Shown here piece by piece: positions 4,737 through 20,816 of a stretch of DNA of 21,582 bases. Position numbers and translations under genes: made by a program. Within the stretch, counting starts at the first letter, position 1. The number at the start of each line of letters is the position of its first letter. The stretch comes from a virus. The stretch spans positions 1,121 to 22,702 of IMG/VR virus record IMGVR_UViG_3300029448_000111; one strand, written 5' to 3'. Below the pieces are notes generated by a model. It saw only the letters and a program-made list of their open reading frames with translations. It was not told the origin of the DNA and searched no databases.

Positions 4737-4807
4737 TGAATGAAGATTTCGATTTTATAAGCGTCGAGTATGACGACGATGGAGAAATAACTTTAATTGA
4801 AGACTAA
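4736..4807 (+). CDS. acidic microprotein, 23 aa
   Basis: A frame of 23 codons (MNEDFDFISVEYDDDGEITL, ending IED) starts by TAATG overlap on the ssb stop, and its own stop forms TAATG with the primase-helicase start. About 11 of 23 residues are Asp or Glu, with alternating hydrophobics. It could be a peptide that mimics DNA or the SSB tip, or only a frame that keeps ribosomes moving from ssb to the helicase gene. Exact coupling at both ends argues against chance. Confidence 0.45.
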   Translation: MNEDFDFISVEYDDDGEITLIED

Positions 4808-6516
4808 TGAATACAACTGAGATTAACGGTTTTGAAATTGACGCATTTAATCAGTATGATCTACAGGCTGGGAAAAGAGAGGGTGTATGCCCTCTCTGCT
4901 CTCATACAAGAAAGCCTAAAAATCAAAAAGCTAAATGTGCAATGTACGACTGGGAAAGAGGTCTCGGAACTTGCATGAATTGCAATGAGGTATTTCAATT
5001 ACACACATTTAAAAGACAATCAAATAAATTGAAAGAATATACCAAACCAGAATGGAAAAATAAGACAGACCTTAGTGATAAGGCAATTAAATGGTTTGAG
5101 TCTCGTAGTATTAGTCAAAAAACTTTAGTAAAAATGAAAGTTACTGAAGCTATTGAATATATGCCGCAAACCGGCAAAGAAGAAAATACAATACAATTTA
5201 ATTACTTTATTAATAACGAACTTATAAATATAAAGTATAGAGATGGAAGGAAAAATTTTAAACTGGTTAAAGGGGCCGAAAAGGTTTTCTATAACATTGA
5301 TAACATTATTGATAGTGAATATGTTGTTATTGTGGAAGGGGAGATGGATGTTCTTTCTTTTGTGGAAAGTGGAATCAATTCTGCTATCTCAGTTCCGAAC
5401 GGAGCTACTATTAATAGCGTTAACCTCGATTACTTGGACAGCTGCATTGATTATTTCGAATCAAAAGAAAAAATCATTATCGCAGTTGATCAAGATGAAG
5501 CGGGATTTGCTCTTAAGCAAGAGCTTATTAGAAGACTCGGAGCAGAAAAATGCTTTACGATTGAGCTCGGTGTACACAAAGACGCTAATGAATTTCTTAT
5601 GGAACATGGGCGCAATAGCCTTGCTGATCTTGTTGATAAAGCTAAGCCTGTACCCATTGAAAATGTTGTAACACTAAAAGATATAAATGAAGAGCTAGAA
5701 GAATTCATATATGAAGGATTCAAACCTGGCTACCAAATTGGTTTAAATAATTTTGATAGTATATTTAGTACTTACACAGGGCAATTTATTACTGTAACAG
5801 GTGTACCAAGTAGCGGTAAATCTGATTTTGTGGACAGAATGGTAGTTGGCTATCAAAGAAATTATGGTTGGAAAACTGCATTTGCGTCTCCAGAAAATAA
5901 ACCAACATTTTTACATACGCATAAACTTATACGTAAATTTGGCAATTGGATGCCGAGAGAACAAGATATTGGTACAGATAAATGGAATAATATTATTTCT
6001 GAAGTTAACGATAATTTTTATTTTATTGAGAACGAAAGATACGATTTAGATGCAGTGCTTAGTAAAGGAGCAGAGCTAGTAAAACGCAAGGGCATTAAAT
6101 GTTTAGTTATAGATCCTTATAATAAAGTTAAAATGCAAGGATCTAGTAGTATGAGCATACCTGATGCCACTATGGAATATTTAACTAGAGTTGAAGCTTT
6201 TGCTAAAAAATATGATGTGCTTGTTATAATAGTTGCTCACCCTACTAAAATGTATAAAAAAGATGATGGCACTATTGAAGAACCGAATATGTATAGCATT
6301 AAGGGTGGAGGAGAATGGTATGATGCATCATATCACGGATTGTTGGTACACCGTAATTATCAAAACAAAACAGTTAAAGTAAAGGTTTTGAAAGTAAAGT
6401 TTCAAAATTTAGGTGAAAACCAAGCAGAAGCACATTTTAAATGGGATCATATAAGCGGTGATTATTTACCCGTTGAAGAAACAACAATAGACTCTATGCC
6501 ATGGGAAGTGGATTAA
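4807..6516 (+). CDS. T7 gp4-type DNA primase-helicase
   Basis: The bifunctional replication enzyme makes RNA primers and unwinds the fork. The 569-residue product has an N-terminal zinc-binding domain (CPLC at 28-31 and CMNC at 56-59, with Cys44 between), a TOPRIM primase core (VEGEMD at 176-181; AVDQDEAG at 226-233; KDANEF at 258-263), and a RecA-like DnaB/twinkle helicase domain. The helicase part has Walker A GVPSSGKS (332-339), Walker B CLVID (432-436), a sensor-like IIVAHPTK (474-481) and the final KVKVLKVKFQNLG arm. Length and order match T7 gp4 and phage twinkle homologues. It lies directly after ssb and before nucleotide metabolism genes. No DNA polymerase gene is in the window, so the partner polymerase must lie elsewhere. 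Confidence 0.94.
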   Translation: MNTTEINGFEIDAFNQYDLQAGKREGVCPLCSHTRKPKNQKAKCAMYDWERGLGTCMNCNEVFQLHTFKRQSNKLKEYTKPEWKNKTDLSDKAIKWFESRSISQKTLVKMKVTEAIEYMPQTGKEENTIQFNYFINNELINIKYRDGRKNFKLVKGAEKVFYNIDNIIDSEYVVIVEGEMDVLSFVESGINSAISVPNGATINSVNLDYLDSCIDYFESKEKIIIAVDQDEAGFALKQELIRRLGAEKCFTIELGVHKDANEFLMEHGRNSLADLVDKAKPVPIENVVTLKDINEELEEFIYEGFKPGYQIGLNNFDSIFSTYTGQFITVTGVPSSGKSDFVDRMVVGYQRNYGWKTAFASPENKPTFLHTHKLIRKFGNWMPREQDIGTDKWNNIISEVNDNFYFIENERYDLDAVLSKGAELVKRKGIKCLVIDPYNKVKMQGSSSMSIPDATMEYLTRVEAFAKKYDVLVIIVAHPTKMYKKDDGTIEEPNMYSIKGGGEWYDASYHGLLVHRNYQNKTVKVKVLKVKFQNLGENQAEAHFKWDHISGDYLPVEETTIDSMPWEVD

Positions 6517-6800
6517 AAAAACGTAAAGGCAAACAAAAGAAAACTTTATGTTTCTACGATTTCATCCCAAGTAAAGAGCATATAAAATGGGATGATTATT
6601 GTATTAAGAACAATATTAGAATTAGCCCTAAACCAACGCAGCGTGGGATGGAACCTGAAGAGTGGAGAATTGAAATTAGAGTTGGTCCTTATCAAAAAGG
6701 CGAAAAAGCTTATTTATCTCCTAACGCTTATACAGCGGAAAGTATACACCAAGAATTATATAATATGAAAAAATATTACTATGATAAACGTTCAAGATGA
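6501..6800 (+). CDS. conserved-looking hypothetical phage protein, 99 aa
   Basis: The start at 6501 overlaps the helicase end by 16 bases. The 99-residue product has a very basic N terminus (MGSGLKKRKGKQKKTLCFYD), then a mixed alpha/beta body with WDDYCIKNN, EEWRIEIRVGPYQKGEKAYL and a C-terminal helix ending YYYDKRSR. A hydrophobic strand framed by Trp/Arg (WRIEIRVGPY) suggests a folded domain. No named family is recognised. The last 20 bases contain the start of the ThyA-like gene. Confidence 0.6.
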   Translation: MGSGLKKRKGKQKKTLCFYDFIPSKEHIKWDDYCIKNNIRISPKPTQRGMEPEEWRIEIRVGPYQKGEKAYLSPNAYTAESIHQELYNMKKYYYDKRSR

Positions 6801-7593
6801 ATATAGAGGATTGCTATCAGGAACATTCCACGGTGGTGTTCCAAAAAAAGATAGAACAGGGACTGGCACAAGAACTGTGTATGGTAGAATAATCAGACAC
6901 GATATGGCAAGTGGCTTCCCATTATTAACAGCTAAAAAAATATATTTTAATCATGCAGTTACGGAATTACTATGGATCCTTCAAGGACGTACTGACCTTG
7001 CTTACTTGCACCAACACGGTGTTACTTATTGGGATGATAATTATAACAAATCAAACAGATCAGATGGAACTCTGGGGGCTGTTTATGGCCAACAGCTTAG
7101 GAACTTTAATGGTCAGGATCAGCTTAAATATGTACTCCAGCAGATTGAGCACGAGCCAAGCTCGAGGCGCATTATGGCTAGCTTATGGAATCCCAGCGAT
7201 ATGGACAATATGGCATTGCCTCCCTGTCATTATGGTTTTCAAATACATATAAACAATAATACTCTTGATCTTAGTTGGAATCAAAGATCAGTAGATTTAT
7301 TTTTAGGTTTGCCCTATGATATAGCTATGTATGGTTTATTATTATTAATGTTCGCAAAAGGTAACGGCTACAAGCCTGGTCAGCTTATTGGTTTTTTGGG
7401 AGACTGTCATATATATAATAATCATATTAGCCAGGTTGAAGAATACCTAAAAAGAAATGATACAAAATTACCTAATGTAAAATTAACAAAAGGGTTGCAG
7501 TATAATGAAAAAATTGTTGTACCTTTACATAAAGATATAAAATTAGAAAATTATAAATTTAATGAACCTATAAAAGCACCACTAGCAACATGA
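6781..7593 (+). CDS. thymidylate synthase-fold enzyme, probably dCMP hydroxymethylase/methylase (Asn-to-Asp at the base-specificity site)
   Basis: A full-length (270 aa) member of the ThyA superfamily, which transfers a one-carbon unit from methylene-tetrahydrofolate to C5 of a pyrimidine nucleotide. Seen: DRTGTGT at 24-30 (phosphate-binding Arg25), ELLWILQG at 62-69 (catalytic Glu62), ALPPCHY at 145-151 (nucleophile Cys149), QRSVDLFLGLP at 168-178, GDCHIYNNH at 207-215 (His210, Tyr212) and the C-terminal IKAPLAT. These align to E. coli ThyA at a constant +3 offset from the nucleophile on. That places Asp180 opposite ThyA Asn177, the residue that reads the uracil ring. In T4 dCMP hydroxymethylase this position is Asp, and Asn-to-Asp mutants of ThyA gain dCMP activity (established knowledge). 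I therefore prefer a dCMP-specific enzyme. Plain ThyA activity is the alternative. The downstream MazG-like gene overlaps it by 4 bases. Confidence 0.88.
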   Translation: MINVQDEYRGLLSGTFHGGVPKKDRTGTGTRTVYGRIIRHDMASGFPLLTAKKIYFNHAVTELLWILQGRTDLAYLHQHGVTYWDDNYNKSNRSDGTLGAVYGQQLRNFNGQDQLKYVLQQIEHEPSSRRIMASLWNPSDMDNMALPPCHYGFQIHINNNTLDLSWNQRSVDLFLGLPYDIAMYGLLLLMFAKGNGYKPGQLIGFLGDCHIYNNHISQVEEYLKRNDTKLPNVKLTKGLQYNEKIVVPLHKDIKLENYKFNEPIKAPLAT

Positions 7594-8369
7594 CATATTA
7601 TGTATATCATATACCCGGAGTAAAAGTTGGTTGTACAACTAATTTAGAAAGAAGGGTTACTAAACAACAGGGATATAATTCTGGAGAATACGAAGTACTT
7701 CTTGAAACTAAAGATATTACTGAAGCTTCTACAAAGGAACAGGTTTCTCAATTAAAGTTTGGTTATAAAAAAGATTTAAAATTATATAAAAATTTATTTA
7801 AAAAAAGAGCAATGAAAAAGCACAGCTCATCCCCTGCCACAACAACATTTAAAATATCAAAATCAGATTTAAACGCTGCATTTCTTGCTGATTTAGAAGT
7901 CAAAACTCAATATGGAAACTTTAAATTTGATTCAAGCGATAAAATTGATTGGGTTATTAGTAATGCAGTATCTAGCCAATTTGGGCCGTCAACTTGTTAT
8001 ATATATAATAAAGCGATGTTAGAAGCAGGCCCATTCCAAAAAAACTTTACTGCTAAAAAAAAGCTATATTCTCATCAAGACCAATTTGAATTAATTAGAG
8101 AGTGGGCTAAGGATAAAGGTATATATGAACAAGGAGATGTTAAAACACAATTAATTAAATTATATGAAGAATCAGGAGAATTATCCCAAGCTATACTTAA
8201 GAATGATAAAGACGGTATTATTGATGCTATTGGTGATAGTGTTGTTGTTCTTACTAATCTGGCCAAACTCGCCGGTGTTCGCATTGAGGACTGCATTAGC
8301 GCTGCTTATGATGAAATATCTAATAGAACTGGTAGAATGATTAACGGAACATTTGTAAAAGATGAGTAA
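7590..8369 (+). CDS. GIY-YIG-like / MazG-like nucleotide pyrophosphohydrolase fusion
   Basis: A 259-residue multidomain protein. Residues 1-55 resemble the GIY-YIG/T5orf172 fold (YYVYHIPGVKVGCTTNLERR), with Tyr3/Tyr4, Gly14, Arg21/22 and a possible catalytic Glu50. Residues about 75-155 form a middle domain I cannot name (for example STCYIYNKAMLEAG). Residues 160-259 look like an all-alpha MazG NTP pyrophosphohydrolase: EESGE at 193-197 and DAIGD at 212-216 give the EExxE...DxxxD metal-binding pattern, followed by SAAYDEISNRTGRM. MazG-type enzymes hydrolyse (d)NTPs to (d)NMPs. It overlaps the ThyA-like gene by 4 bases (ATGA), so the two are probably made together. A role in supplying dCMP or dUMP to that enzyme is inference. 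The nuclease-like part may be a DNA- or nucleotide-binding remnant. Confidence 0.72.
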   Translation: MTYYVYHIPGVKVGCTTNLERRVTKQQGYNSGEYEVLLETKDITEASTKEQVSQLKFGYKKDLKLYKNLFKKRAMKKHSSSPATTTFKISKSDLNAAFLADLEVKTQYGNFKFDSSDKIDWVISNAVSSQFGPSTCYIYNKAMLEAGPFQKNFTAKKKLYSHQDQFELIREWAKDKGIYEQGDVKTQLIKLYEESGELSQAILKNDKDGIIDAIGDSVVVLTNLAKLAGVRIEDCISAAYDEISNRTGRMINGTFVKDE

Positions 8370-8667
8370 AGATAAAATAATACAACAGGTTGTAGAAAAA
8401 ATACAGAATAGATCCAAAGTTGGTTTTAAAAAATATGGCGTTACACTTTACGATGATAACCAGCCACTAGACACATGGCTTAACCATATACAAGAAGAAC
8501 TAATGGACGCCGTAAATTACATTGAAAAAACAAGAATGTCTTTGCGAGAAGAAATTGAAGAATGTTATATAAAAGATTTAAAAGTTACAGACCCTGAATT
8601 AATTTCAGCATATCCAGAAACAGATTATTGGACAACTAATCATACAAATGAAATACAAAAAAAATAG
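8362..8667 (+). CDS. small MazG-like helical protein, 101 aa
   Basis: The product has a phage-type motif R-S-K-V-G-F-K-K-Y-G (17-26), then TWLNHIQEELMDAVNYIEK (38-56), in which Glu45, Glu46 and Asp49 resemble the metal-binding helix of MazG-like all-alpha NTP pyrophosphatases. The second acidic helix of full MazG is not obvious, although the REEIEE stretch at 62-67 may stand in. It overlaps the GIY-YIG/MazG gene by 8 bases and the endonuclease gene by 20. I infer a nucleotide hydrolase or binding role from the motif and from the neighbouring ThyA-like and MazG genes. Specificity cannot be read. Confidence 0.55.
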   Translation: MSKDKIIQQVVEKIQNRSKVGFKKYGVTLYDDNQPLDTWLNHIQEELMDAVNYIEKTRMSLREEIEECYIKDLKVTDPELISAYPETDYWTTNHTNEIQKK

Positions 8668-9106
8668 AAAAAGAGGCCCAGTAACCTCTAAAAAAATATC
8701 ATATGATGGTATAAACTTCGCTTCAGGCCTTGAAAGATATACTTATATTGCTTTAAAAAAAGCAAAACTATTTGAATATTACGAAGGCGAAAACTTTGCT
8801 TTAATAGATCCATTTGATTTCCCAAATGAATCATATGAAAAACAAGCAAACGGCAAGGGCGAATATATTAACCGTGGTATTAAAAAAATATTAGGTATAA
8901 AGTATACACCTGATTTTACTGGAAAAGATTATATAATAGAATGTAAAGGGCGTGCTAACGAGTCATTCCCTTTGCGGTGGAAATTATTTAAATTATGGCT
9001 AACGAAAAACAATATTGGAAGGACGCTTTACAAGCCGCAAAACCAGAAAGAAGTAGATTTAACGATACAGATGATAAAAGAAAAAAGAAAAAGCAAGCGC
9101 AAATAA
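8648..9106 (+). CDS. T7 endonuclease I-like Holliday junction resolvase / PD-(D/E)XK endonuclease
   Basis: The 152-residue product keeps the layout of T7 gp3 endonuclease I: FASGLERY at 24-31 (Glu29, like the FRSGLE of T7), YTPDF at 86-90 (Asp89) and YIIECKG at 95-101 (Glu98, Lys100), forming a PD-(D/E)XK site. Basic tails at both ends (MKYKKNRKRG; KEKRKSKRK) suit DNA binding. T7 endonuclease I resolves branched DNA and degrades host DNA. Here it would complete the ERF/exonuclease/ligase recombination set. A DUF1064-type nuclease is the close alternative. It overlaps the MazG-like gene by 20 bases, and the next small gene starts on its stop (TAATG). Confidence 0.82.
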   Translation: MKYKKNRKRGPVTSKKISYDGINFASGLERYTYIALKKAKLFEYYEGENFALIDPFDFPNESYEKQANGKGEYINRGIKKILGIKYTPDFTGKDYIIECKGRANESFPLRWKLFKLWLTKNNIGRTLYKPQNQKEVDLTIQMIKEKRKSKRK

Positions 9107-9786: not shown

Positions 9787-9997
9787 ACTGCTGGAAATGC
9801 ACAACAAAATAGAAACACTTGGCAAAGCAGTTAATATGCTAGCAAGAGACTTAACTCATATAAAAGACTTATCAGTTGGAACTATGAGTTTGATAAAAAA
9901 GTTTAAAGGTTATAAAAAAGCATTAGAAGAATTAAAAACAGAACACGCAAAAAAACAAATTGAGAATGAGCCTATTCAAGGAAAGGATACCGTATAA
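9773..9997 (+). CDS. hypothetical helical protein, 74 aa
   Basis: The start at 9773 gives a 14-base overlap with the upstream stop. ATG 9797 is an alternative. The 74-residue product (MKESRLLEMHNKIETLGKAV) is all-helical and probably coiled coil (LEELKTEHAKKQIENE), without catalytic motifs. Its last 32 bases contain the nrdB start, so it may be translated together with NrdB. Function unknown. Confidence 0.5.
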   Translation: MKESRLLEMHNKIETLGKAVNMLARDLTHIKDLSVGTMSLIKKFKGYKKALEELKTEHAKKQIENEPIQGKDTV

Positions 9998-10934
9998 ACC
10001 ATTTGAATACCCTGAATATTATAATGATGGTTGGTTAAAACAAGCGCAAGCATTTTGGTTACATACCGAAATACCAATGCAAGGTGATGTTAAAGATTGG
10101 AATGAAAAACTTACCAAATCAGAAAAAAATTTAGTAGGTAATATATTATTGGGATTTGCACAAACAGAATGTGCAGTTTCAGATTATTGGACACAAAAAG
10201 TTGTAGGCTGGTTTCCAAAACACGAAATAAAGCAAATGGCTATGATGTTTGGTAGCCAAGAAACAATACACGCTGTAGCATATAGCTATTTAAACGAAAC
10301 ATTAGGCCTTGAAAACTTTGAAGCATTTTTACAAGATGAAGCAACTATGGAACGGTTTGACAACCTCGTCGCTTATGAAGGAACTGAGTTGGGTGGCATC
10401 GCAAAATCCCTGGCTATTTTTTCTGCTTTTGCTGAAGGAGTTAGCCTTTATTCTGCTTTTGCTGTATTATATTCTTTTCAATTAAGAAATTTATTAAAAG
10501 GAATCGGTCAGCAAATGAAATGGTCTGTTAGAGATGAATCTTTGCATTCTAAAATGGGATGTCAGCTATTCAAGCACATGTGTGCTGAAGTACCTGAACT
10601 ACGAAATAAATGTTATAAAGATGTTATTGAAGCAGCAGAAGCAATGCTTAGTGCAGAAGAAAAATATATTGACAGGATGTTCGAACAAGGGGATATTGAA
10701 AACCTTAAAGCTTACGACCTCAAACAATTTATTAGAAAAAGACTTAATGAAAAAATCGTTGAACTTGGTTACAGCAACAGGGGGAAACACTTTAAATATA
10801 ATGAAGTCGCATCAGCAAACCTCGACTGGTTTTACCATCTTACCGGTGGTCATACTCATACTGACTTTTTTGCTGTTAGGCCGACTGATTATTCAAAAGC
10901 TAATGAAGGTGAAGACTTTCAAGATATTTGGTAA
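9966..10934 (+). CDS. nrdB: class I ribonucleotide reductase small subunit (R2)
   Basis: R2 holds the metal cofactor and radical that start reduction of ribonucleotides to deoxyribonucleotides in NrdA. I start at ATG 9966 (MSLFKERIPYKPFE, 322 aa). A TTG six bases upstream is less likely. Ligand positions: Glu68 (AQTEC), Glu99 and His102 (SQETIHAVAY), Glu157 (FAEGVSLY), Glu191 and His194 (RDESLHSK). Tyr106 sits where the E. coli radical Tyr122 is. The first ligand is Glu, not the Asp84 of E. coli, with the same 31-residue spacing to the second. The C terminus EGEDFQDIW is the tail that would dock on NrdA. Two small genes separate it from nrdA. It supplies dNTPs for phage replication. Confidence 0.94.
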   Translation: MSLFKERIPYKPFEYPEYYNDGWLKQAQAFWLHTEIPMQGDVKDWNEKLTKSEKNLVGNILLGFAQTECAVSDYWTQKVVGWFPKHEIKQMAMMFGSQETIHAVAYSYLNETLGLENFEAFLQDEATMERFDNLVAYEGTELGGIAKSLAIFSAFAEGVSLYSAFAVLYSFQLRNLLKGIGQQMKWSVRDESLHSKMGCQLFKHMCAEVPELRNKCYKDVIEAAEAMLSAEEKYIDRMFEQGDIENLKAYDLKQFIRKRLNEKIVELGYSNRGKHFKYNEVASANLDWFYHLTGGHTHTDFFAVRPTDYSKANEGEDFQDIW

Positions 10935-11291: not shown

Positions 11292-11632
11292 AAATATGCA
11301 ATAAATGCCATAAAGAAAAAAGTAATATAAAGTTTAGACCAGATAAAAAAACCTGTATAAAATGTGAGTACCGCTTTAAACAAAGATGGTTAAGATCTTT
11401 AGTAAAAGAAAGAAAATTAATTCCTTACGAAAGATTAGCCAATAGATTAGGTTATATGGGTACAGGTTTTTTTGTTACAGCACCTCACATGCTACCAGAC
11501 ACTTCTGGTGTAGTTGTTTATTTTTTAGCCGGCTTATTTTCTTTACCCCAGGTTTGGGTCGCAAAACAATGGAATCTTGTTATAGTTAATTTAAACGTCA
11601 TAGCTGCGTACAGCTTATTATTTTTTAGATAA
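11273..11632 (+). CDS. zinc-ribbon plus transmembrane protein, 119 aa
   Basis: I start at ATG 11273 (MAKGTLKICNKC); an in-frame ATG at 11243 would add ten residues. Residues 9-31 form a Cys4 zinc ribbon (CNKC ... CIKC, Cys9/12/28/31). A basic stretch follows (RFKQRWLRSLVKERK), then two or three hydrophobic helices (about 60-74, 79-98 and 100-118), with GLFSLPQVWVAKQWNLVIVN between the last two. The PQ inside the helical turn recalls PQ-loop or PnuC-like small transporters, but the match is weak. The Zn finger would face the cytoplasm. It overlaps the exported-protein gene by 19 bases and joins nrdA by TAATG, so it is co-translated with the reductase. Confidence 0.65.
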   Translation: MAKGTLKICNKCHKEKSNIKFRPDKKTCIKCEYRFKQRWLRSLVKERKLIPYERLANRLGYMGTGFFVTAPHMLPDTSGVVVYFLAGLFSLPQVWVAKQWNLVIVNLNVIAAYSLLFFR

Positions 11633-13374
11633 TGTGGAATAACGATTGGAAAAAAGGAGAAGATTACCCTACTTGGGGAGACACTGATGTTTACAAAAAA
11701 ACAATATCAGGAGGTTACCTACTATTAGGAGAGACGCCAAAAGAAGCTTATTGGAGAGTTGCTAAAGCTGTAGCTAGACGTTTATACAAGCCAGAACTAG
11801 CTGAAAAGTTTTTTCAATACATATGGGATGGCTGGCTGTGTTTAGCTTCACCTGTGCTATCTAATACAGGCACAGATCGAGGTTTACCTATAAGTTGTTT
11901 TGGTATTGATGTAGGTGACAGCATTTCCGAAATAGGTACTAAGAATTTAGAGATGATGCTACTTGCTAAACACGGCGGCGGAGTTGGTATTGGAATTAAT
12001 ATGATAAGGCCCGCTGGAGCTAAAATAACAGGTAATGGAACAAGTGATGGAGTGGTGCCATTTTGTAAGGTTTATGATTCAACTATACTTGCCACTAATC
12101 AAGGGTCTGTCCGAAGAGGAGCGGCGAGCGTTAATATTAACATTGACCATCCCGACTTCGACGAATGGCTTGAAATTAGAGAACCCAAAGGAGACGTTAA
12201 CAGACAGTCACTTAACTTGCACCAGTGCGCTGTGGTCGGCGATAAGTTCATGCGAAACCTTGAAGCAGGAGATGCTGAGGCTAGACAAAAATGGGCAAAG
12301 CTATTACAAAAACGTAAAGCAACTGGAGAGCCTTATATATTGTTTAAAGGAAATACAAACAAGAATAATCCAGAAGCATACAAGAAAAATAGTTTAAAGG
12401 TACACATGACTAACATATGTAGTGAAATAGTGCTACATACAGATGAATCACATAGTTTTGTGTGCTGTTTATCATCAGTTAATTTAGATAGATACGACGA
12501 GTGGAAGAACACAAATTTAATTTACGACGCAACTTGGTTTCTAGACGGTGTGCTAGAAGAATTTATTCAGCGTGCCAAGAATATGAAGGGATTCGAGAAC
12601 TCTGTACGCAGTGCGGAGAAGGGCCGAGCGGTTGGGTTAGGTGTGCTTGGATGGCACAGCCTACTGCAAAAAAACGGAATATCTTTCGAAAGTTTATTAG
12701 CACAATTCAAAACGCGAGAAATCTTTTCAAAAATAAAAATTGAAACAGAGAGAGCATCGCGTAGCTTAGCAGAAACTTATGGCGAACCGCTGTGGTGTGC
12801 GGGAACTGGAATGAGGAATACTCACCTTAGAGCCGTCGCGCCTACAGTTTCAAATAGCAAATTAGCTGGGAATGTTTCTCCGGGTATTGAACCTTGGGCA
12901 GCGAATGTTTTTACAGAGCAATCAGCTAAGGGTACTTTTATTAGAAGAAACAAAGAATTAGAAAAAGCATTAAGAAAAGTTGGTATCAATAATAAAGAAA
13001 CTTGGGATAAAATTCTTAAGGATGGTGGATCCATTCAAGGGATTAAAGAACTTAGCGGATGGTATTACGATCACGGAGGAAGACTTAATCAAGAAGAGGG
13101 GGAACCAGTAAAGAATGTATTTAAAACATTTAAAGAAATAAATCAATTAGAGCTTGTTCGCCAAGCAGGCATAAGGCAAGATTATATTGATCAATCTGTT
13201 TCTTTAAATTTAGCATTTCCTTCAGAAGCTCCACCTAGATGGTTAAATCAGGTACACATGGAAGCATGGAAGCGTGGTATTAAAACACTATATTATACGC
13301 GTACAGAATCAGTATTAAGAGGAGATATAGCCGCAGCAGCTATGGATCCTGATTGTTTAAGCTGCGACGGTTAA
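11632..13374 (+). CDS. nrdA: class I ribonucleotide reductase large subunit (R1)
   Basis: R1 carries the active site and reduces ribonucleotides. The 580-residue product has ASPVLSNTG at 72-80, the redox Cys89 (LPISCFG), NICSEI at 261-266 (radical Cys263, Asn261, Glu265), Cys278/279 (SFVCCLSSVNL) as the second redox partner, GRAVGLGVLGWH at 331-342, the radical-pathway pair Tyr554-Tyr555 (TLYYTRTES), and a C-terminal CLSC (575-578) that re-reduces the site through thioredoxin or glutaredoxin. At 580 aa it is much shorter than E. coli NrdA (about 760) and lacks the N-terminal ATP-cone, as in many phage R1s, so dATP inhibition at that site is probably absent. It starts by TAATG on the zinc-ribbon gene. 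Confidence 0.95.
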   Translation: MWNNDWKKGEDYPTWGDTDVYKKTISGGYLLLGETPKEAYWRVAKAVARRLYKPELAEKFFQYIWDGWLCLASPVLSNTGTDRGLPISCFGIDVGDSISEIGTKNLEMMLLAKHGGGVGIGINMIRPAGAKITGNGTSDGVVPFCKVYDSTILATNQGSVRRGAASVNINIDHPDFDEWLEIREPKGDVNRQSLNLHQCAVVGDKFMRNLEAGDAEARQKWAKLLQKRKATGEPYILFKGNTNKNNPEAYKKNSLKVHMTNICSEIVLHTDESHSFVCCLSSVNLDRYDEWKNTNLIYDATWFLDGVLEEFIQRAKNMKGFENSVRSAEKGRAVGLGVLGWHSLLQKNGISFESLLAQFKTREIFSKIKIETERASRSLAETYGEPLWCAGTGMRNTHLRAVAPTVSNSKLAGNVSPGIEPWAANVFTEQSAKGTFIRRNKELEKALRKVGINNKETWDKILKDGGSIQGIKELSGWYYDHGGRLNQEEGEPVKNVFKTFKEINQLELVRQAGIRQDYIDQSVSLNLAFPSEAPPRWLNQVHMEAWKRGIKTLYYTRTESVLRGDIAAAAMDPDCLSCDG

Positions 13375-13622: not shown

Positions 13623-16600
13623 TTAAGCATATAGCTTTTTAGCCTGTTTAGTTGTAGGCTCTGCGTCATACGCGCGTTTTTCCCACGGTAATTTTGGGTC
13701 ACCCTCTTTATAGTATTTACCGTTATAAAGTATCTTTCCGTTTTTTCGCTTATACTTTTTACCTTTCCAATATACAAATTTATCATCATAATCAAGTACA
13801 CCACTTTTCATATCTTTAACATGCTGTTTTTCGTGGGCTACTGTTTTAACCTTTTCTACTGATGATAAATTAGGATCTATTTCTATAGTTCCATCTCTAT
13901 TAGCTTGTCCCGCTACACCTTTTTTAAGTTTTTTTGCAGGAGACTTTTTTCTGGCCTCCATTACTCTTTTATATGCGTCAGGGTTTGATTTTTTAAGGTT
14001 TTTCATAAAAGACTCAAACTCTTTACTTCTTTCTACCTGGCTGTCATTATCAATGTCTAAATTGTAATCTGAATACCCAAGCGCTAAAGCAATTCTTTGC
14101 CAAGTTTCTAATTCTTGGTCTAAAGACATTTTTATATTACGAGCTTTTAATACAGCTCTATCTGCCGGAACATTTGCAACAGCAGATAAAACCTGGCCTA
14201 ATGCAAGCGCAGCTGGATTATCTACACTAATACCTTTAGATCTTATATCTTTTAAATTATCTTTATATGTAAAAGCTCTTCCCGCATTTCTTAAATTTGA
14301 TATTTTTTTATCAATAGGAGGCGTCAAACTTAAAGCTTCCAACCCAACATCTACATAATTAGGGGCTTTAGACTTATATTGTTCTACAGCTTTTATTACT
14401 ACATTCTTAATTGCCGCTGCGCCCGCTCCATAAACTCCGGAACCTCTAAGAAATAAGTCAGCTGTTGAGTTTGCGATAGTTTGAATAGCTTTCTCTTCTT
14501 CTTCATCATCAATAGTATCATCGTCAAATAGTGAAGCAAACAGAGCTTGCTGTAGTGCTGTAAATATTATATTTTGAACAGCTCCATAATATATTATTTT
14601 AGATAAATTTGTTTTCCAATCACCTCTACCATTATAAAGATCTAAAGAAGCTTTTTTAACTAATCTAGTATATTGCATAGGGGTGTTTGCAAAAGCTAGT
14701 ATAACACGCCCTAAATTGCTTGCTTGCTGCATTGAAACTCTATCTGGTCTAGATGATTGTTGAGACTCTTCTGCTATTTCTTGGAATTCTATTAATGTCT
14801 TACTAATTGCTTCTTGCTCAGAAAATCCTTTCTTTTTATAAGAATTAATTCTATTGCGATAAAAACTAGCGCCCCCTATTGCTATAGCAAAATTATCTGC
14901 TATTTGTGTAGGTAAAAAACCTGCTTTTAATAATCCCGATAGAGCTCCTTTAATTCTGTTTTTTGAAGTTGAAGCAGCATTTGCTATTTCATCTGCATTA
15001 ACATCATTTTTTAGACCAGATCTCCTAGCTTTCAAAAAGTCTGAATTCATTAATGTTGCAAAATCTTTCCAAAATTGTGGTTGATTTGCAAAAGCTTTAC
15101 CTGCCATTAAAGGATTGTTATCGCTAAAATTAATAAAGTTGACAGAAGAAATTGTTTGCAGAAGAGCTGACCGGGTGTTAAAGAACATTATTGTTCCAAC
15201 AGAATCATTAACCCACCCTAAAAATTCTTGCTCTAAACGATTACCACCAATTCTATTTCTACCGGTTTTCATTCTATGTAAGATATTCTCTAGTGCCTCT
15301 ACATATTTATCACCAAATATAGCCTGAAGCTTATTTAAGTTTTCTTTGCTATACACGGTGTCTACATTCTCTTGCCAGTCCTTTAAAAATTCAGAACGAG
15401 AAACAGTATTAATATTGTTTATTAAATCAATTGTTAAATTTCCAGCTAACCAATCAGATTCCGGCGCAGGATAAGGATTACCATTTAATAATGATTTAAT
15501 AGAATTAGCAAACTCTAATAACTCCGGGCTATTCTCTACATAATTTACTAAAGCTTTAGTATCTCTTTTAGATGTAGTTTCTGGTACAACATTTTGTTCG
15601 TTCCATAAAAATATTCTTAAAGCTTGTTCATTAGTAAATCCTCTTACAGCTTGTTTTTTTAAGCTTTTAGGACTTTTCTTTATTTGCTTTTTTAGTTGTC
15701 TCCACTCTTTTAAAGTATTTACTTTCGCAGCTTCAAACTGATTTATAGCAACAGCGTATGGAGTTAAAAGATTTTTCTTATACCATTCAAAGTTTTTATC
15801 TCCAACTTTACCTTTACCCAGTGTTGGATATATAAGTCCTACAAAATCCTCAGCAGAATAAGGGACAAAGAATTTAAATTTGCCTTTATTCTTGCCTAGC
15901 ATTTTAGCTCTATCTTCCGAGTACCTTGCTTCTGATTTTATGCCTTTAACTTTTTGCAAAATATCGTTGAACTCATTATCTAATATTTTAGAAGCCATCA
16001 CTCTTGTAGATTTACCTGCGGCGTCAATTTTATATTTATCAGCCATTGTTTGACCGTTAATGTCAATTATACTCGCAGGATCGATACCTCCAAAAATAAA
16101 TACATCAGGATGAAAATATCTTTCTGTCCAATGACTATCATATACATCCCAGCCTAAGCCCATCGAATTGCCTCTATTCGCTTTTTTTAACACGGCATCA
16201 GCCGCTGCATCCAAAGCAATTACTTTATAATTATTCATAACAGCGGGATAAGCTGTTTGAAAAGGAACTTTGTTTAATGCTGACGAAATTAAAAATAATC
16301 TAGCATTATTAGCTTGCATGGCATGTTCCCATTCATATAATTTTTTCCCGTTTCCTTTTGGATTTTGAGAATAACCTATAACTTCAGCCCCAAGCCTGTG
16401 CCAACCCGCTCCTCCAAAACTTGTAGGTGTTAAATAAACAGCAAGTCTAGCCGCAGAAGGGTTTTGAATTATAGCTTCGTATAGCGGTTCCCATACTTGT
16501 TTGTGCATCGCGCTGTTTGAATCATTAAAATTTTGCAGTCTTCCTGATTCAATAGACTTTTTAATTGTTTCTGGTGTACTGCCTAACCATTTATTAAAAT

Positions 16601-19600
16601 CTCTTGCCGCCCAGCCTTCAGCTTTGCCTTCTAATTTAGTTTTGCTTTTTTGTTTTATTTCTTCAACAACATTTTCTATTTTGTTTTTTAGCTGAGCTTT
16701 TAATTTTTTAAATTGTTGTGCTCCTTTTTTAGATTTTTTAGAATTTTTATAAGCATCTTTCATCATCCTATGATTAGGAAATATTTTAGAAAAAGACCCT
16801 ATTATTTCTATAGGCAAGGTGGGCCCAATTTTTTCCAAATCTCCAACCAATTCATTTTGACCTTTTTCAGTGCTTAAGTCATATTCTCCTCCGAACTTTT
16901 CTAATAAAGCAGCTGTAACATTTTGTGCAGGTCTACCGGCCCCATCTTTAAAGCCGGCCATGTTAGAAAGCTTAGTTGGCCCATTTTTCGGAGGAAGTAT
17001 TTTACTAGCTAAAACAACACCATGCTTTTCTTTAAATAATTTAGCAGTGGCTTTGTCTTTTTTAGCGTATTCTATTCTTTTTTCGTTGCCAATTTGTCTT
17101 GCAATCGCTTTGTTAAGTGATTTCTTACGATCACTTCGTGTAGAAGCTTGGTCGTTTTTAGCCTCATAATATTCTAAAAACTCTTGATTACTCGGCTCAA
17201 TAACATTCCAATCAGTAGCAGGGCCGCCACCTTTTTGAAAATCAATATTTGATAAAGCAATATCTTTTAAATCATCAATATTTTTCTTTATAAATTTAGA
17301 AAAATCTTCTGAAGTTTTAGTGTTTTTGCCTAATACTTCTGAAATATCTTTAAAAAGTTGCTTACTAAATAAATCATTAAATGCTTTATTACGAGAATTT
17401 ACTTTTTTAAGATCTGATATATTTTTACCTGTTAAAGTTTTATCGGCTTTAATTGTAGCAAGTTCGGCTAGCTTATCTGATTTGTCGTTTAATTCCTTAG
17501 GTAAATTAAATTTTTCAAATACATTTCTAGTATCAGTTATTTCTGTTTTTTGGTCTTCAGCGACAACTTCTTTTGATTCGGGTGTGTCTAATGTTTGTGC
17601 ACCCTGCGTTACTTGTCCCCCAACTCTTTCATCTAAAACCCTTATAGCCCTATTTGCTAATTGGCTTTTAGCATAACCCCCAAAAGAACCCACCTCCGGA
17701 TTGTATGTTTTAGCTAAACCTAGCAAAGAACTCGCTTTATTACGTTCTGTACCAAAAGTAAGGTCTGAAACAATATCTTGCTTGTTTTGATTATCAGCAA
17801 GATAATCCATTATAAATTGATCTTGTTCTTTACTTATACCTAGCCCAACTTTGCTTATTCTATCAACAACCGCTTGCGCTAAAGGTTCATAAGCTATAGC
17901 TGCTTCCGCCTGAAACGATTCAGGAGCATTATTTGTTTTTCCGTCGTGCTTGTAGTTTTGAAATTCATTATTAACGGACCCTTCTTCAAACGCTACATTT
18001 TCAACTATTTTAGAAGTTTCAACACCTTTTTGATCTTCCGGCTGAGATGTTGCACCTAAATTAATTTTTTTGCCAGAAACAATTTTTCTATTAAAGTTTT
18101 TAATAAACTCAAATGCTTGTTCTCCGGTGTTAATTTTAAATTCATCCGCTTCATTAGGATTAACAAAAGTATTTATAGAAGACTTTATATTATCTCTTAG
18201 TTTTGATAAAAAATCTTTACTTTCTTCTCTTATTATATCTTGATTTATTAAATCACTAATTACAGTAAAAAGTTCTTCCGACTGATCTTCTGTTTCATAT
18301 AAAGATAACTTAGCTTTTATATTGTTTAATTGATCATTAGTAATATTGCCCTCGCCTTGCTCCATCTCAACCTGCAACATTAAATCATCTTTTACAGCGT
18401 CAAAAGCTTCTTTTGTAAGGCCTTTTGCTAGGAAAGCAGCATGCATATACTCGTGTATTGCTGCGGCTCTATTTGTTTTAGGTGCTATATCCGTAAACAC
18501 CACGGCATTTTTTGAATCTTTGTCAAAGAACCCATCATTGCCCGCTACGTTTTCTAATATTACTCTAGCCTCTTCCTTGTTTATAGTATCACCAGCGTCT
18601 GTGGTCATCGCAGGGCTTTCGCCCTCTATAAAAGAATTTAATTTAGAAATATCATTATTAGATATTCCTAATACTTTATTAGCCCATTTTGTTTTTTTAT
18701 TATGGACCTTTACTTTTTGTAAGTTTGTTTGAGTAGTTAACGCATTCCTATATATATCTCCCTCAGATAATCCTTCTACTGCTTCCAAAGATTTAAATCT
18801 TTTATCCGCGGAGTCTATTAAATCTCGTTTTTGCTGTTGTAAAGAATTAAATTCTTGCTCTAATTCTTTTCTTAATATATCCTTACTTTTTTCAGATATA
18901 GAAGGATCTGACGCTGCACTAGTCCAGTTGCTGTTTATTTTTCTTGATTGCCTATCTAATTCAAATACTTGTTTTTGTTGCTCTTCAGATAGCCTTAAAA
19001 ACCTAGCGGAAGTGATGTCTTGATTTTCGCTAATTGATTTTATTTTTTTAGTTATAATTTCACCAATTTGGTTTTTACGGTCAGTGGTTGTATTTTCATT
19101 TTTTAATTCTAAGGTAAGTTCAGATATTTCAGAAAGCCTATTCGCTATATCTTGTTTTTCTTGCTTAGAAGAAATTACATTGAGCATTGCGGCCCTACCA
19201 ACAACACCTCCTTCGGCAACTCTAAAGCCTGTTCCTATTAAAGCACCTTGAGCCATAGCTTCATCCATGCCTTCAGTATAAGATTTCTCTTGACCGTCTA
19301 TGTGTATATCAGCTATGTTTTGTGTTAAAGTTGTTAAGCCTTCCGTGCCCCCCTCTATAACAGTGCCCCCGGGTAAACGGGCTGCTGATTTACTTATAGC
19401 TTCTTTATATGAAGAAACAGGTATTGCCTTTCTAGCAGCCTTAAGATCATTTATAAGTTTAACAGTACCTAATCTTTCAAAAACACCTTCTGCAGCACCA
19501 TATATACCACTTGTAGCTAGTTTAGTAAGATTATTAGTGCTAATTACATCATTATATTTATTTATTTGCTCAGTTATTTTATTTTTTTCGAGCTGGTCAG

Positions 19601-20816
19601 TTGTATTTTCTAACTGTTCTTTTAGTTTTGGTAAATTTTTTATAGCTTCTGCTTCGTTTACCGCATATTCAGAAATTCTACTAGTATATCCTGTAGTAAA
19701 AAATAATGGTAATGCAGCAGGTCCTGATGCAGCCATTATACCTGACGGTACAAAATTAATTAAAGCATCGCCCGCCCACTCTGAAAATTGAGAAATATTA
19801 GATACTGCTCCAATAGCAACAGGTTTTGCTAAATTTTCTTGTCTATTTTTAGCAAGCTCTTGGCTTAAATTTATTAAATCTTTTGTATACGATTTAGCTT
19901 TGCCTTCTTCACTTTTAAGCATGTCAAGCGTATAATTTACGCCTAACGCAATATCAATTCCTGTTTTAGCTAAAGTATTTTCTAACATATCTAAGTCGCT
20001 ATAACTGCGCTTAAATGCGTCATAAATGCCTTTTGTTTTATTTAAATCAGATTGTTTTGCTATAATATCAGTGCTTCTTTCTTTTAAATCTTTAAGATTA
20101 AGCTGGAGCTCCTCGACCTCTTCAGGGGTTGGGTTTACACCCATATCAATGCTTATGTTTATAGCCTTTACTTTTTCTTCGTAAGCATTAAGATTGTCTG
20201 TAAATTCTAATTCTGATTGAGCATACGAAGCTTCTTGTTCTTCTTTTCTTTGTCCAAGCTGTTGTTTCAATTCTTGTTGAGCATATTCTGGAACATCTTC
20301 CATGAAGTCCCTTTCTTTTGCGTCAAACTCTTCTTGCATTTTTTCAGCAAGTGTTTCATCAGGTATTTCAAGATCTACACTTGGATTTTGCAGATATTCC
20401 TCATAAAGCTCACGCTCATTAGATTTAAATTCGCCTTGTTCAAAATTATTTTTTAATTGTTGCTGAAGATTTTTTTTCTTTGTACTAATATCCTCTATAG
20501 ATGTTGCTTTATAGTATTCTTCTTCTAAATTATTTATTAATTCTTGTTTATTATCAGCTATTAAAGCTAACTCTTTTTGACGGGTTTGTTTTCTAACGCT
20601 TTTGCGGGGTGATTCCAAAGAACCACTTTCCGACTGTAAACCCATATCTACGGGCTTTTCTGCCGCCGCAGGCACAGTCTCCTCCACAACGGCATTCGTC
20701 TTTCCCACATTAGAATCAGGATTTGATTTTTGATATTCAGCTATTACAGCATTTATATTTTCTTCGGGTTGCCCCTCATCAAGCATCTGCTGTACAATTT
20801 GTTCTAATTCGTTCAT
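13623..20816 (-). CDS. giant 2397-aa multidomain virion protein with two HExxH motifs
   Basis: The largest gene of the window. Residues 1-350 are charged and coiled-coil-rich (Gln/Glu/Lys). Hydrophobic Gly/Ala-rich segments follow (about 352-376 and 475-560, with IEGGTEGLTTLTQNIA). A metallopeptidase-like motif HEYMH is at 788-792 with a possible third ligand Glu848 (SEELF). Around 1038-1061, YNPEVGSFGGYAKSQLANRA resembles sigma-70 region 2. A long mixed region without named motifs follows. Residues 2072-2096 are membrane-like (YGAVQNIIFTALQQALFASL). The C-terminal domain has HEKQH at 2328-2332 and a WEKRAYDAE segment (Glu2379 a candidate ligand). Such proteins are internal or injected virion proteins or 'polyvalent' proteins of phages. 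Which one this is remains inference. No frameshift is seen. It overlaps the upstream structural gene by 4 bases. Confidence 0.78.
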   Translation of the reverse strand: MNELEQIVQQMLDEGQPEENINAVIAEYQKSNPDSNVGKTNAVVEETVPAAAEKPVDMGLQSESGSLESPRKSVRKQTRQKELALIADNKQELINNLEEEYYKATSIEDISTKKKNLQQQLKNNFEQGEFKSNERELYEEYLQNPSVDLEIPDETLAEKMQEEFDAKERDFMEDVPEYAQQELKQQLGQRKEEQEASYAQSELEFTDNLNAYEEKVKAINISIDMGVNPTPEEVEELQLNLKDLKERSTDIIAKQSDLNKTKGIYDAFKRSYSDLDMLENTLAKTGIDIALGVNYTLDMLKSEEGKAKSYTKDLINLSQELAKNRQENLAKPVAIGAVSNISQFSEWAGDALINFVPSGIMAASGPAALPLFFTTGYTSRISEYAVNEAEAIKNLPKLKEQLENTTDQLEKNKITEQINKYNDVISTNNLTKLATSGIYGAAEGVFERLGTVKLINDLKAARKAIPVSSYKEAISKSAARLPGGTVIEGGTEGLTTLTQNIADIHIDGQEKSYTEGMDEAMAQGALIGTGFRVAEGGVVGRAAMLNVISSKQEKQDIANRLSEISELTLELKNENTTTDRKNQIGEIITKKIKSISENQDITSARFLRLSEEQQKQVFELDRQSRKINSNWTSAASDPSISEKSKDILRKELEQEFNSLQQQKRDLIDSADKRFKSLEAVEGLSEGDIYRNALTTQTNLQKVKVHNKKTKWANKVLGISNNDISKLNSFIEGESPAMTTDAGDTINKEEARVILENVAGNDGFFDKDSKNAVVFTDIAPKTNRAAAIHEYMHAAFLAKGLTKEAFDAVKDDLMLQVEMEQGEGNITNDQLNNIKAKLSLYETEDQSEELFTVISDLINQDIIREESKDFLSKLRDNIKSSINTFVNPNEADEFKINTGEQAFEFIKNFNRKIVSGKKINLGATSQPEDQKGVETSKIVENVAFEEGSVNNEFQNYKHDGKTNNAPESFQAEAAIAYEPLAQAVVDRISKVGLGISKEQDQFIMDYLADNQNKQDIVSDLTFGTERNKASSLLGLAKTYNPEVGSFGGYAKSQLANRAIRVLDERVGGQVTQGAQTLDTPESKEVVAEDQKTEITDTRNVFEKFNLPKELNDKSDKLAELATIKADKTLTGKNISDLKKVNSRNKAFNDLFSKQLFKDISEVLGKNTKTSEDFSKFIKKNIDDLKDIALSNIDFQKGGGPATDWNVIEPSNQEFLEYYEAKNDQASTRSDRKKSLNKAIARQIGNEKRIEYAKKDKATAKLFKEKHGVVLASKILPPKNGPTKLSNMAGFKDGAGRPAQNVTAALLEKFGGEYDLSTEKGQNELVGDLEKIGPTLPIEIIGSFSKIFPNHRMMKDAYKNSKKSKKGAQQFKKLKAQLKNKIENVVEEIKQKSKTKLEGKAEGWAARDFNKWLGSTPETIKKSIESGRLQNFNDSNSAMHKQVWEPLYEAIIQNPSAARLAVYLTPTSFGGAGWHRLGAEVIGYSQNPKGNGKKLYEWEHAMQANNARLFLISSALNKVPFQTAYPAVMNNYKVIALDAAADAVLKKANRGNSMGLGWDVYDSHWTERYFHPDVFIFGGIDPASIIDINGQTMADKYKIDAAGKSTRVMASKILDNEFNDILQKVKGIKSEARYSEDRAKMLGKNKGKFKFFVPYSAEDFVGLIYPTLGKGKVGDKNFEWYKKNLLTPYAVAINQFEAAKVNTLKEWRQLKKQIKKSPKSLKKQAVRGFTNEQALRIFLWNEQNVVPETTSKRDTKALVNYVENSPELLEFANSIKSLLNGNPYPAPESDWLAGNLTIDLINNINTVSRSEFLKDWQENVDTVYSKENLNKLQAIFGDKYVEALENILHRMKTGRNRIGGNRLEQEFLGWVNDSVGTIMFFNTRSALLQTISSVNFINFSDNNPLMAGKAFANQPQFWKDFATLMNSDFLKARRSGLKNDVNADEIANAASTSKNRIKGALSGLLKAGFLPTQIADNFAIAIGGASFYRNRINSYKKKGFSEQEAISKTLIEFQEIAEESQQSSRPDRVSMQQASNLGRVILAFANTPMQYTRLVKKASLDLYNGRGDWKTNLSKIIYYGAVQNIIFTALQQALFASLFDDDTIDDEEEEKAIQTIANSTADLFLRGSGVYGAGAAAIKNVVIKAVEQYKSKAPNYVDVGLEALSLTPPIDKKISNLRNAGRAFTYKDNLKDIRSKGISVDNPAALALGQVLSAVANVPADRAVLKARNIKMSLDQELETWQRIALALGYSDYNLDIDNDSQVERSKEFESFMKNLKKSNPDAYKRVMEARKKSPAKKLKKGVAGQANRDGTIEIDPNLSSVEKVKTVAHEKQHVKDMKSGVLDYDDKFVYWKGKKYKRKNGKILYNGKYYKEGDPKLPWEKRAYDAEPTTKQAKKLYA

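Follow-up and report, generated by a model that had tools for sequence, protein, structure and literature searches.

The question raised by this locus is whether a phage gene with the fold of thymidylate synthase (ThyA) encodes an enzyme that acts on dUMP, or one that acts on dCMP and leads to modified cytosine in the phage DNA. The gene lies in a stretch of 21,582 nucleotides (here called the window), which covers positions 1,121 to 22,702 of the IMG/VR record IMGVR_UViG_3300029448_000111, a virus fragment of 39,893 bases. An earlier sequence-only reading of the window had proposed a dCMP hydroxymethylase or methylase, as the asparagine with which ThyA reads uracil is replaced by aspartate. 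The corresponding single exchanges, N177D in E. coli ThyA and N229D in L. casei ThyA, were described as giving dCMP methylases (Hardy and Nalivaika 1992; Liu and Santi 1992, as cited in PMC8670742), and Asp177 was enriched in contigs with modified cytosine (PMC8670742). From the identity of this residue, from comparative genomics and from a restriction-site footprint, we infer that the window protein is, with high confidence, a ThyA-fold enzyme acting on dCMP instead of dUMP. The phage DNA is very probably built with modified cytosine, evading bacterial restriction enzymes. 5-methyl-dCMP is moderately favoured as the product.

Identity and conservation of the ThyA-fold protein

The ORF is intact and full-length, with a PF00303 match spanning residues 7-269 of the 270-residue protein (Table 1). 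The protein scored 249 bits against TIGR03284, the NCBI thymidylate synthase equivalog model (cut-off 108). An AlphaFold (AF2) model built from the clade alignment had a mean pLDDT of 91.7 and matched ThyA crystal structures, in a fold-level comparison, with a Z of about 36 and 1.5 A over 257 residues. The catalytic residues listed in the sequence-only reading (Glu62, Cys149, Arg25, His210 and Tyr212) were all found at the positions it gave, and its GAT codon was confirmed as the Asp of LPYDIA in the plus-strand ORF. Alignment with E. coli ThyA (b2827) placed this Asp180 on Asn177, as had been claimed. By its profile, its catalytic Cys, Glu and Tyr and its phosphate-binding Arg the protein belongs to the ThyA family, with the uracil-reading Asn177 replaced by Asp.

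Table 1. Features of the window around the ThyA-fold gene.
Feature	Positions	Strand	Evidence	Remarks
Primase-helicase (Toprim + DnaB)	4807..6516	+		Upstream border of the slot; scan bait
p99, small ORF	6501..6800	+	Synteny	Between primase-helicase and enzyme; no assigned function
ThyA-fold protein, 270 aa, type D1	6781..7593	+	PF00303 E=1.8e-83	Proposed dCMP C5-methylase
Glu62 codon	6964..6966	+		Catalytic
Cys149 codon	7225..7227	+	Motif LPPCH	Catalytic; His150 kept
GAT codon, Asp180	7318..7320	+	Motif LGLPYDIA	= E. coli ThyA Asn177, T4 gp42 Asp179
C-terminal tail IKAPLAT	7570..7590	+	Alignment	ThyA-like (E. coli IKAPVAI); absent from T4 gp42
T5orf172 (GIY-YIG-like) + MazG fusion	7590..8369	+	PF03819 6e-6, PF01503 1.7e-4	Candidate (d)NTP pyrophosphohydrolase
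p101, small conserved ORF	8362..8667	+	PHROGs without assigned function; synteny	Downstream of the MazG fusion
DUF1064 protein	8648..9106	+	PF06356	Syntenic module member
NrdB, ribonucleotide reductase small subunit	9960..10934	+	PF00268	
NrdA, ribonucleotide reductase large subunit	11632..13374	+	PF02867	

Relatives of the protein were fetched by two scans, the peptide patterns of which left residue 177 uncovered. Asp was found in every one of the 55 nearest relatives, which come from viral contigs of many independent assemblies and share 51-80% identity, and Asn in each of the 25 remoter matches (below 42% identity). A second, profile-based scan gave 80 clade loci, some of them on contigs repeated from the first scan, and all had Asp. 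With both scans pooled, 132 sequences showed the YD motif, 25 showed FN (all outside the clade) and three T4-type sequences were missed by the motif. As the independent assemblies of the clade, here called type D1, all show Asp, this residue is attributable neither to chance nor to sequencing error. The median dN/dS of near-identical clade pairs was about 0.13, which indicates purifying selection on the gene. All 77 readable bacterial ThyAs were of the Asn type, and bacterial genomes yielded no clade member, their best matches having 38-47% identity. The closest match in the phage collection (46%) was the Td of an Aeromonas phage, and the related Aeh1 Td is of the Asn type. With these as the best matches, no isolate of the clade is known from that collection.

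Among the 69 TS-fold proteins placed in a tree, the D1 clade formed a single group (SH-aLRT 100) adjoining Asn-bearing viral ThyAs (L060, L062, L066, L067 and L068; SH-aLRT 86). It stood apart from T4 gp42, SPO1 gp29 and the XP12-like enzymes of DLP4, AXL1 and RcRudolph, the placement of the T4 and SPO1 proteins being unsure because of their long branches. SPO1 gp29, a dUMP hydroxymethylase, is also a TS-fold phage DNA-modification enzyme, but, unlike D1, it keeps the Asn, i.e. uses dUMP. As D1 is nested in ThyA beside Asn-bearing neighbours, its Asp most likely arose from an Asn ancestor, separately from that of T4 gp42. The clade was not found deep among proven ThyAs carrying Asp, and the tree thus leaves the dCMP proposal standing.

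The gene slot and its neighbours

The closest relatives of the terminase were found in Podoviridae ctfjg026 (MW202828, 64%) and then in Flavobacterium elemo phages, with further relatives in Cellulophaga, Tenacibaculum and Maribacter phages; on this ground a marine flavobacterium is the probable host. The best phage relatives of NrdA came from phages infecting Flavobacterium and Cellulophaga. On the TerL tree, the phages with an Asp enzyme formed one clade (SH-aLRT 99). A literature search on cytosine modification in Cellulophaga or elemo phages found nothing relevant.

The place of the ThyA-fold gene between its neighbours (the slot) was sampled with the neighbouring genes only as baits, first the terminase and then the primase-helicase and the MazG fusion, the enzyme itself being unused. 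The terminase scan gave 22 records, six of them with a PF00303 gene (one D1, two D2 and three D3), and all six encoded Asp and adjoined a MazG fusion. D2 is a second ThyA type, with the motif IPYDVA and His147 replaced by Tyr. D3 is of the T4 gp42 type, with Asp145 in 88/88 and Ser94 in 86/86 proteins and T4 dCMP hydroxymethylase as the best PDB match. The primase-helicase and MazG-fusion scans gave 160 loci, with a TS-fold ORF in the slot at 153 and the other seven cut by contig ends. The distinct slot proteins numbered 136 (88 D3, 30 D2 and 18 D1); all 136 had Asp and none Asn, with a scan profile that included Asn-type ThyAs. Exactly one TS-fold gene was present in each of the 16 large genomes tested, and the enzyme type was switched at least five times within the Asp clade on the TerL tree. 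This repeated replacement by enzymes of the dCMP type, and never of the dUMP type, suggests that the job of the slot is dCMP modification. The ThyX of MW202828 was considered as another occupant of the slot and was ruled out, as gene-order comparison showed a different replication module.

The ten larger clade records (57-67 kb) shared, as far as the contigs extend, the order sigma - Erf - exonuclease - SSB-like - primase/helicase - (p99) - ThyA-D - MazG fusion - p101 - DUF1064 - NrdB - NrdA. Recognisable homologues of p99 were present in most genomes of all three enzyme types, and p99 had no match in PHROGs. In the 24 clade records (G000-G023), no second PF00303 gene, ThyX, dihydrofolate reductase (DHFR) or dCMP deaminase was found. 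No family A DNA polymerase was found in these records either, which contained primase-helicase, Erf, exonuclease, ligase and SSB-like genes; the replicase may be that of the host or an unrecognised one. In some members, a class II (B12-dependent) ribonucleotide reductase replaces NrdB/NrdA (L379:6143-8008 and L386:1502-3361, in D2 and D3 genomes).

The neighbouring MazG-type gene, from which the sequence-only reading had suggested a supply of dCMP, adjoined the Asp enzyme in all three types. In the window it is translationally coupled to the ThyA-fold gene, as its ATG begins at 7590 and shares bases with the TGA stop at 7591-7593 (ATGA). Its acidic motif EE[SA]GE...DAIGD was present in 16 of 17 relatives, the seventeenth being cut by a contig end, and the T5orf172 match of the N-terminal part falls below the cut-off. 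None of the sister genomes examined has the fusion as such; in one of them there is a short MazG match. The presence of a MazG-type neighbour is thus confirmed, but no kinship between the MazG domain and the T4 dCTPase gp56 was found by BLASTP. A dCTPase role like that of gp56 is plausible. PF01503 co-occurs with TS domains in cytosine-modified contigs, with which DNA-ligase domains are also associated (PMC8670742), and the window contains TS, PF01503 and DNA-ligase domains.

Restriction-site footprint

Modified cytosine would relieve a phage of the need to avoid restriction sites. Counts of C-containing 4-base palindromes were compared with those expected under a maximal-order Markov model. 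The comparison was first explored with five controls. New controls were then fetched from the sister group of MW202828 as delimited by the terminase, giving 16 records that lack both ThyA and ThyX; 17 sister genomes were compared. Six Asp genomes were added in the second pass, giving a total of 22 Asp-enzyme phages. Small differences between palindromes were excluded as evidence, and only large ones (zero against expectation) were counted.

The observed/expected ratio of GATC was 0.78-1.17 in all 22 Asp-enzyme phages, whereas GATC was entirely absent from 13 of the 17 sister genomes (for example, 0 of 218, 202, 173 and 165 expected). With CATG set aside, at least one C-containing palindrome was under half of its expectation in 1/22 Asp phages and in 17/17 sisters. 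The footprint of the D1 phages matched that of the D2 and D3 phages. AT-only palindromes showed no comparable depletion, with slight differences in ATAT and TATA between the phage groups. Relief from site avoidance relative to enzyme-less kin was thus seen across 22 and 17 genomes, as one phylogenetic contrast which reflects a single evolutionary change on the TerL tree. The sisters in this comparison have a different replication module, a somewhat higher GC content and probably other hosts, and ten were sampled over 13-22 kb only. The absence of avoidance in the module-bearing phages, against its presence in the sisters, supports the reading of modified cytosine. Together with the invariance of the Asp and the exchange with gp42-type enzymes in the slot, it argues for the class of enzyme originally proposed, a dCMP hydroxymethylase or methylase.

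In this sister group of uncultured podophages (records L719-L733, L668, L670, L683, L689, L706, L698, L707 and L212), several of the GATC-less genomes also lacked CTAG, GGCC, CGCG or CATG, an extreme purging of sites.

The reaction product and rival readings

In the alignment with E. coli ThyA, the clade retains Trp80, Val93, Tyr94, Arg126/127, Leu143, Cys146, His147, Arg166, Ser167, Asp169, His207 and Tyr209 as well as the C-terminal tail. The changes are Asn177 to Asp, Ser180 to Met and Trp83 to Asn (window protein) or Asp (much of the clade). Trp83 is the reported controller of solvent access to the ThyA site, and its loss is common to Asn-type viral ThyAs such as Aeh1 Td. Like the ThyAs engineered in 1992, D1 differs by one Asn-to-Asp change with the other catalytic residues kept; unlike them, it is natural, belongs to a phage lineage, also lacks Trp83 and Ser180 and is accompanied by a coupled MazG gene. 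The thymidylate synthases of modified contigs from coastal and sewage viromes (MetaGPA, PMC8670742) share with D1 the Asp177, the co-occurring PF01503 and the associated DNA-ligase domains, but they also differ as a group at position 147, where D1 keeps the His. No carbamoyltransferase was found in two partly scanned D1 genomes.

A methyl product is favoured over a hydroxymethyl one because the protein resembles ThyA at Val93, Leu143 and His147 and in its C-terminal tail. The Asp would carry or accept the N3 proton of cytosine and so hold cytosine where Asn holds uracil, as in the established chemistry of ThyA and gp42. Cys149 would attack C6, with the one-carbon unit taken from methylene-THF, and the methylene would be reduced to methyl and not hydrated, because the environment for hydride transfer (Val93, Leu143 and the tail) is kept. 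Host kinases would then convert 5-mdCMP into 5-mdCTP, dCTP may be hydrolysed by the coupled MazG-like enzyme, and the virion cytosine would be largely replaced.

The main rival is a dCMP hydroxymethylase, by which the exocyclic methylene would be hydrated and the DNA would carry 5hmC, possibly decorated further. In T4 gp42, which has no C-terminal tail, Ser94, Tyr96 and Asp145 are needed to activate water, and Ser94 and Asp145 are required for full activity (PMC6400193). D1 has only the Tyr of these three: the window protein has Leu146 at the position of Asp145, and the clade has Gly, Glu or Ala, never Ser, at that of Ser94. The protein thus shares with T4 gp42 the Asp to which the sequence-only reading pointed (Asp179 in gp42), but not Ser94, Asp145, the missing tail or membership of the gp42 clade, so that a methylase is likelier. 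Glycosyltransferases of PF04488, which might have served further decoration, were found in 1/55 records scanned and in one more genome, none of them D1. On the other side, enzymes of the gp42 type, with the hydroxymethylation residues kept, fill the same slot in sister members, the D1 and D3 phages show an equal footprint, the loss of Trp83 could admit water, and the C-terminus of the clade is variable, with many members extending beyond the ThyA end (LSVGK). A hydroxymethylase is a serious but less likely alternative.

The residues are imperfect predictors of the product, as is seen from the XP12-like enzymes, represented here by those of Bosavirus DLP4 and AXL1, near a phage with 5mC DNA. 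These share with D1 the LPYD motif and an adjacent MazG-type gene, but form a separate clade, have Asn/Ala/Pro at Leu143/Val93/His147, lack the tail, and come with a DHFR and dCMP deaminase cluster which the window lineage does not have. Yet in XP12 DNA the cytosine is 100% 5mC, and this DNA is resistant to ~90% of Type II enzymes (PMC7653180, Table 1). Of the features of a dCMP methylase, the Asp177 equivalent, Val93, Leu143 and the tail are present in the window protein and Trp83 is replaced. With Trp83 lost, and with XP12-like enzymes that do without the ThyA-like residues, the preference for a methyl product is not decisive.

Two further readings leave the phage DNA unmodified or the substrate unchanged. 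Thymidylate might be supplied indirectly, by methylation of dCMP to 5-mdCMP and conversion of this to dTMP by a host deaminase; dCMP deaminases can deaminate 5-mdCMP, and these AT-rich phages (GC 0.32-0.35) need dTMP. This is improbable, as no phage deaminase was found in the 24 records and neither the swaps with hydroxymethylase-type enzymes nor the footprint would be explained. Least probable of all is an ordinary thymidylate synthase tolerating Asp and still using dUMP: the overall closeness to ThyA, the score against the equivalog model and the ThyX of the related phage MW202828 speak for it, but the Asp is invariant at an otherwise nearly invariant Asn, as in all slot enzymes, the ThyX sits in a different replication module, and the engineered N177D and N229D enzymes favour dCMP (1992 studies, as cited in PMC8670742).

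The preferred reading of a dCMP methylase may be set in a wider picture, to which, with all its parts taken jointly, an even chance is given. In a widespread marine, probably flavobacterial, podophage lineage, one slot for cytosine modification would have been refilled repeatedly by unrelated TS-fold enzymes; two of these would be ThyAs converted independently of each other, and one a hydroxymethylase of the T4 type. The type derived from ThyA would be a natural one-residue dCMP methylase, and sister phages would have 5mC or 5hmC DNA through a single locus, in genomes with no recognised phage DNA polymerase, no dCMP deaminase or DHFR and no regular glycosyltransferase. The rule for this residue has been published before; the lineage, the three-type slot and the footprint contrast were absent from the literature searched and are apparently new. 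Nature seems to have made the one-residue conversion of 1992 within a single abundant phage lineage, once at the least and probably twice. As annotation pipelines call such genes thymidylate synthase (the equivalog model is passed), cytosine-modified phages are overlooked. The slot offers a comparative system, with one gene place, three enzyme types and enzyme-less sisters purged of GATC and other sites, in which sequence alone shows what restriction costs and what modifying cytosine gains.

Some minor observations were made in the same genomes. A glycosyltransferase was rejected as a steady companion of the slot, as only two genomes were found to have one; both are of the D3 type and the enzyme is DXD-type (L384:87-746 and G086:C1:12626-12874), where its role could be the decoration of 5hmC or something else. 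In the window, a 2397-aa ORF at 13623-20816 on the minus strand, conserved in the lineage, contains two HExxH-like motifs (HEYMH and HEKQH) and may encode a very large polyvalent or virion protein. A sigma-70-like protein is encoded at 1964-2695 on the plus strand, with a region 4 match below the cut-off, and a protein of G013 shows region 2. GroEL is encoded by members of the lineage and by relatives (L097-L099, L111-L114, L212 and L213), and GroES additionally in MW202828 and elemoC.
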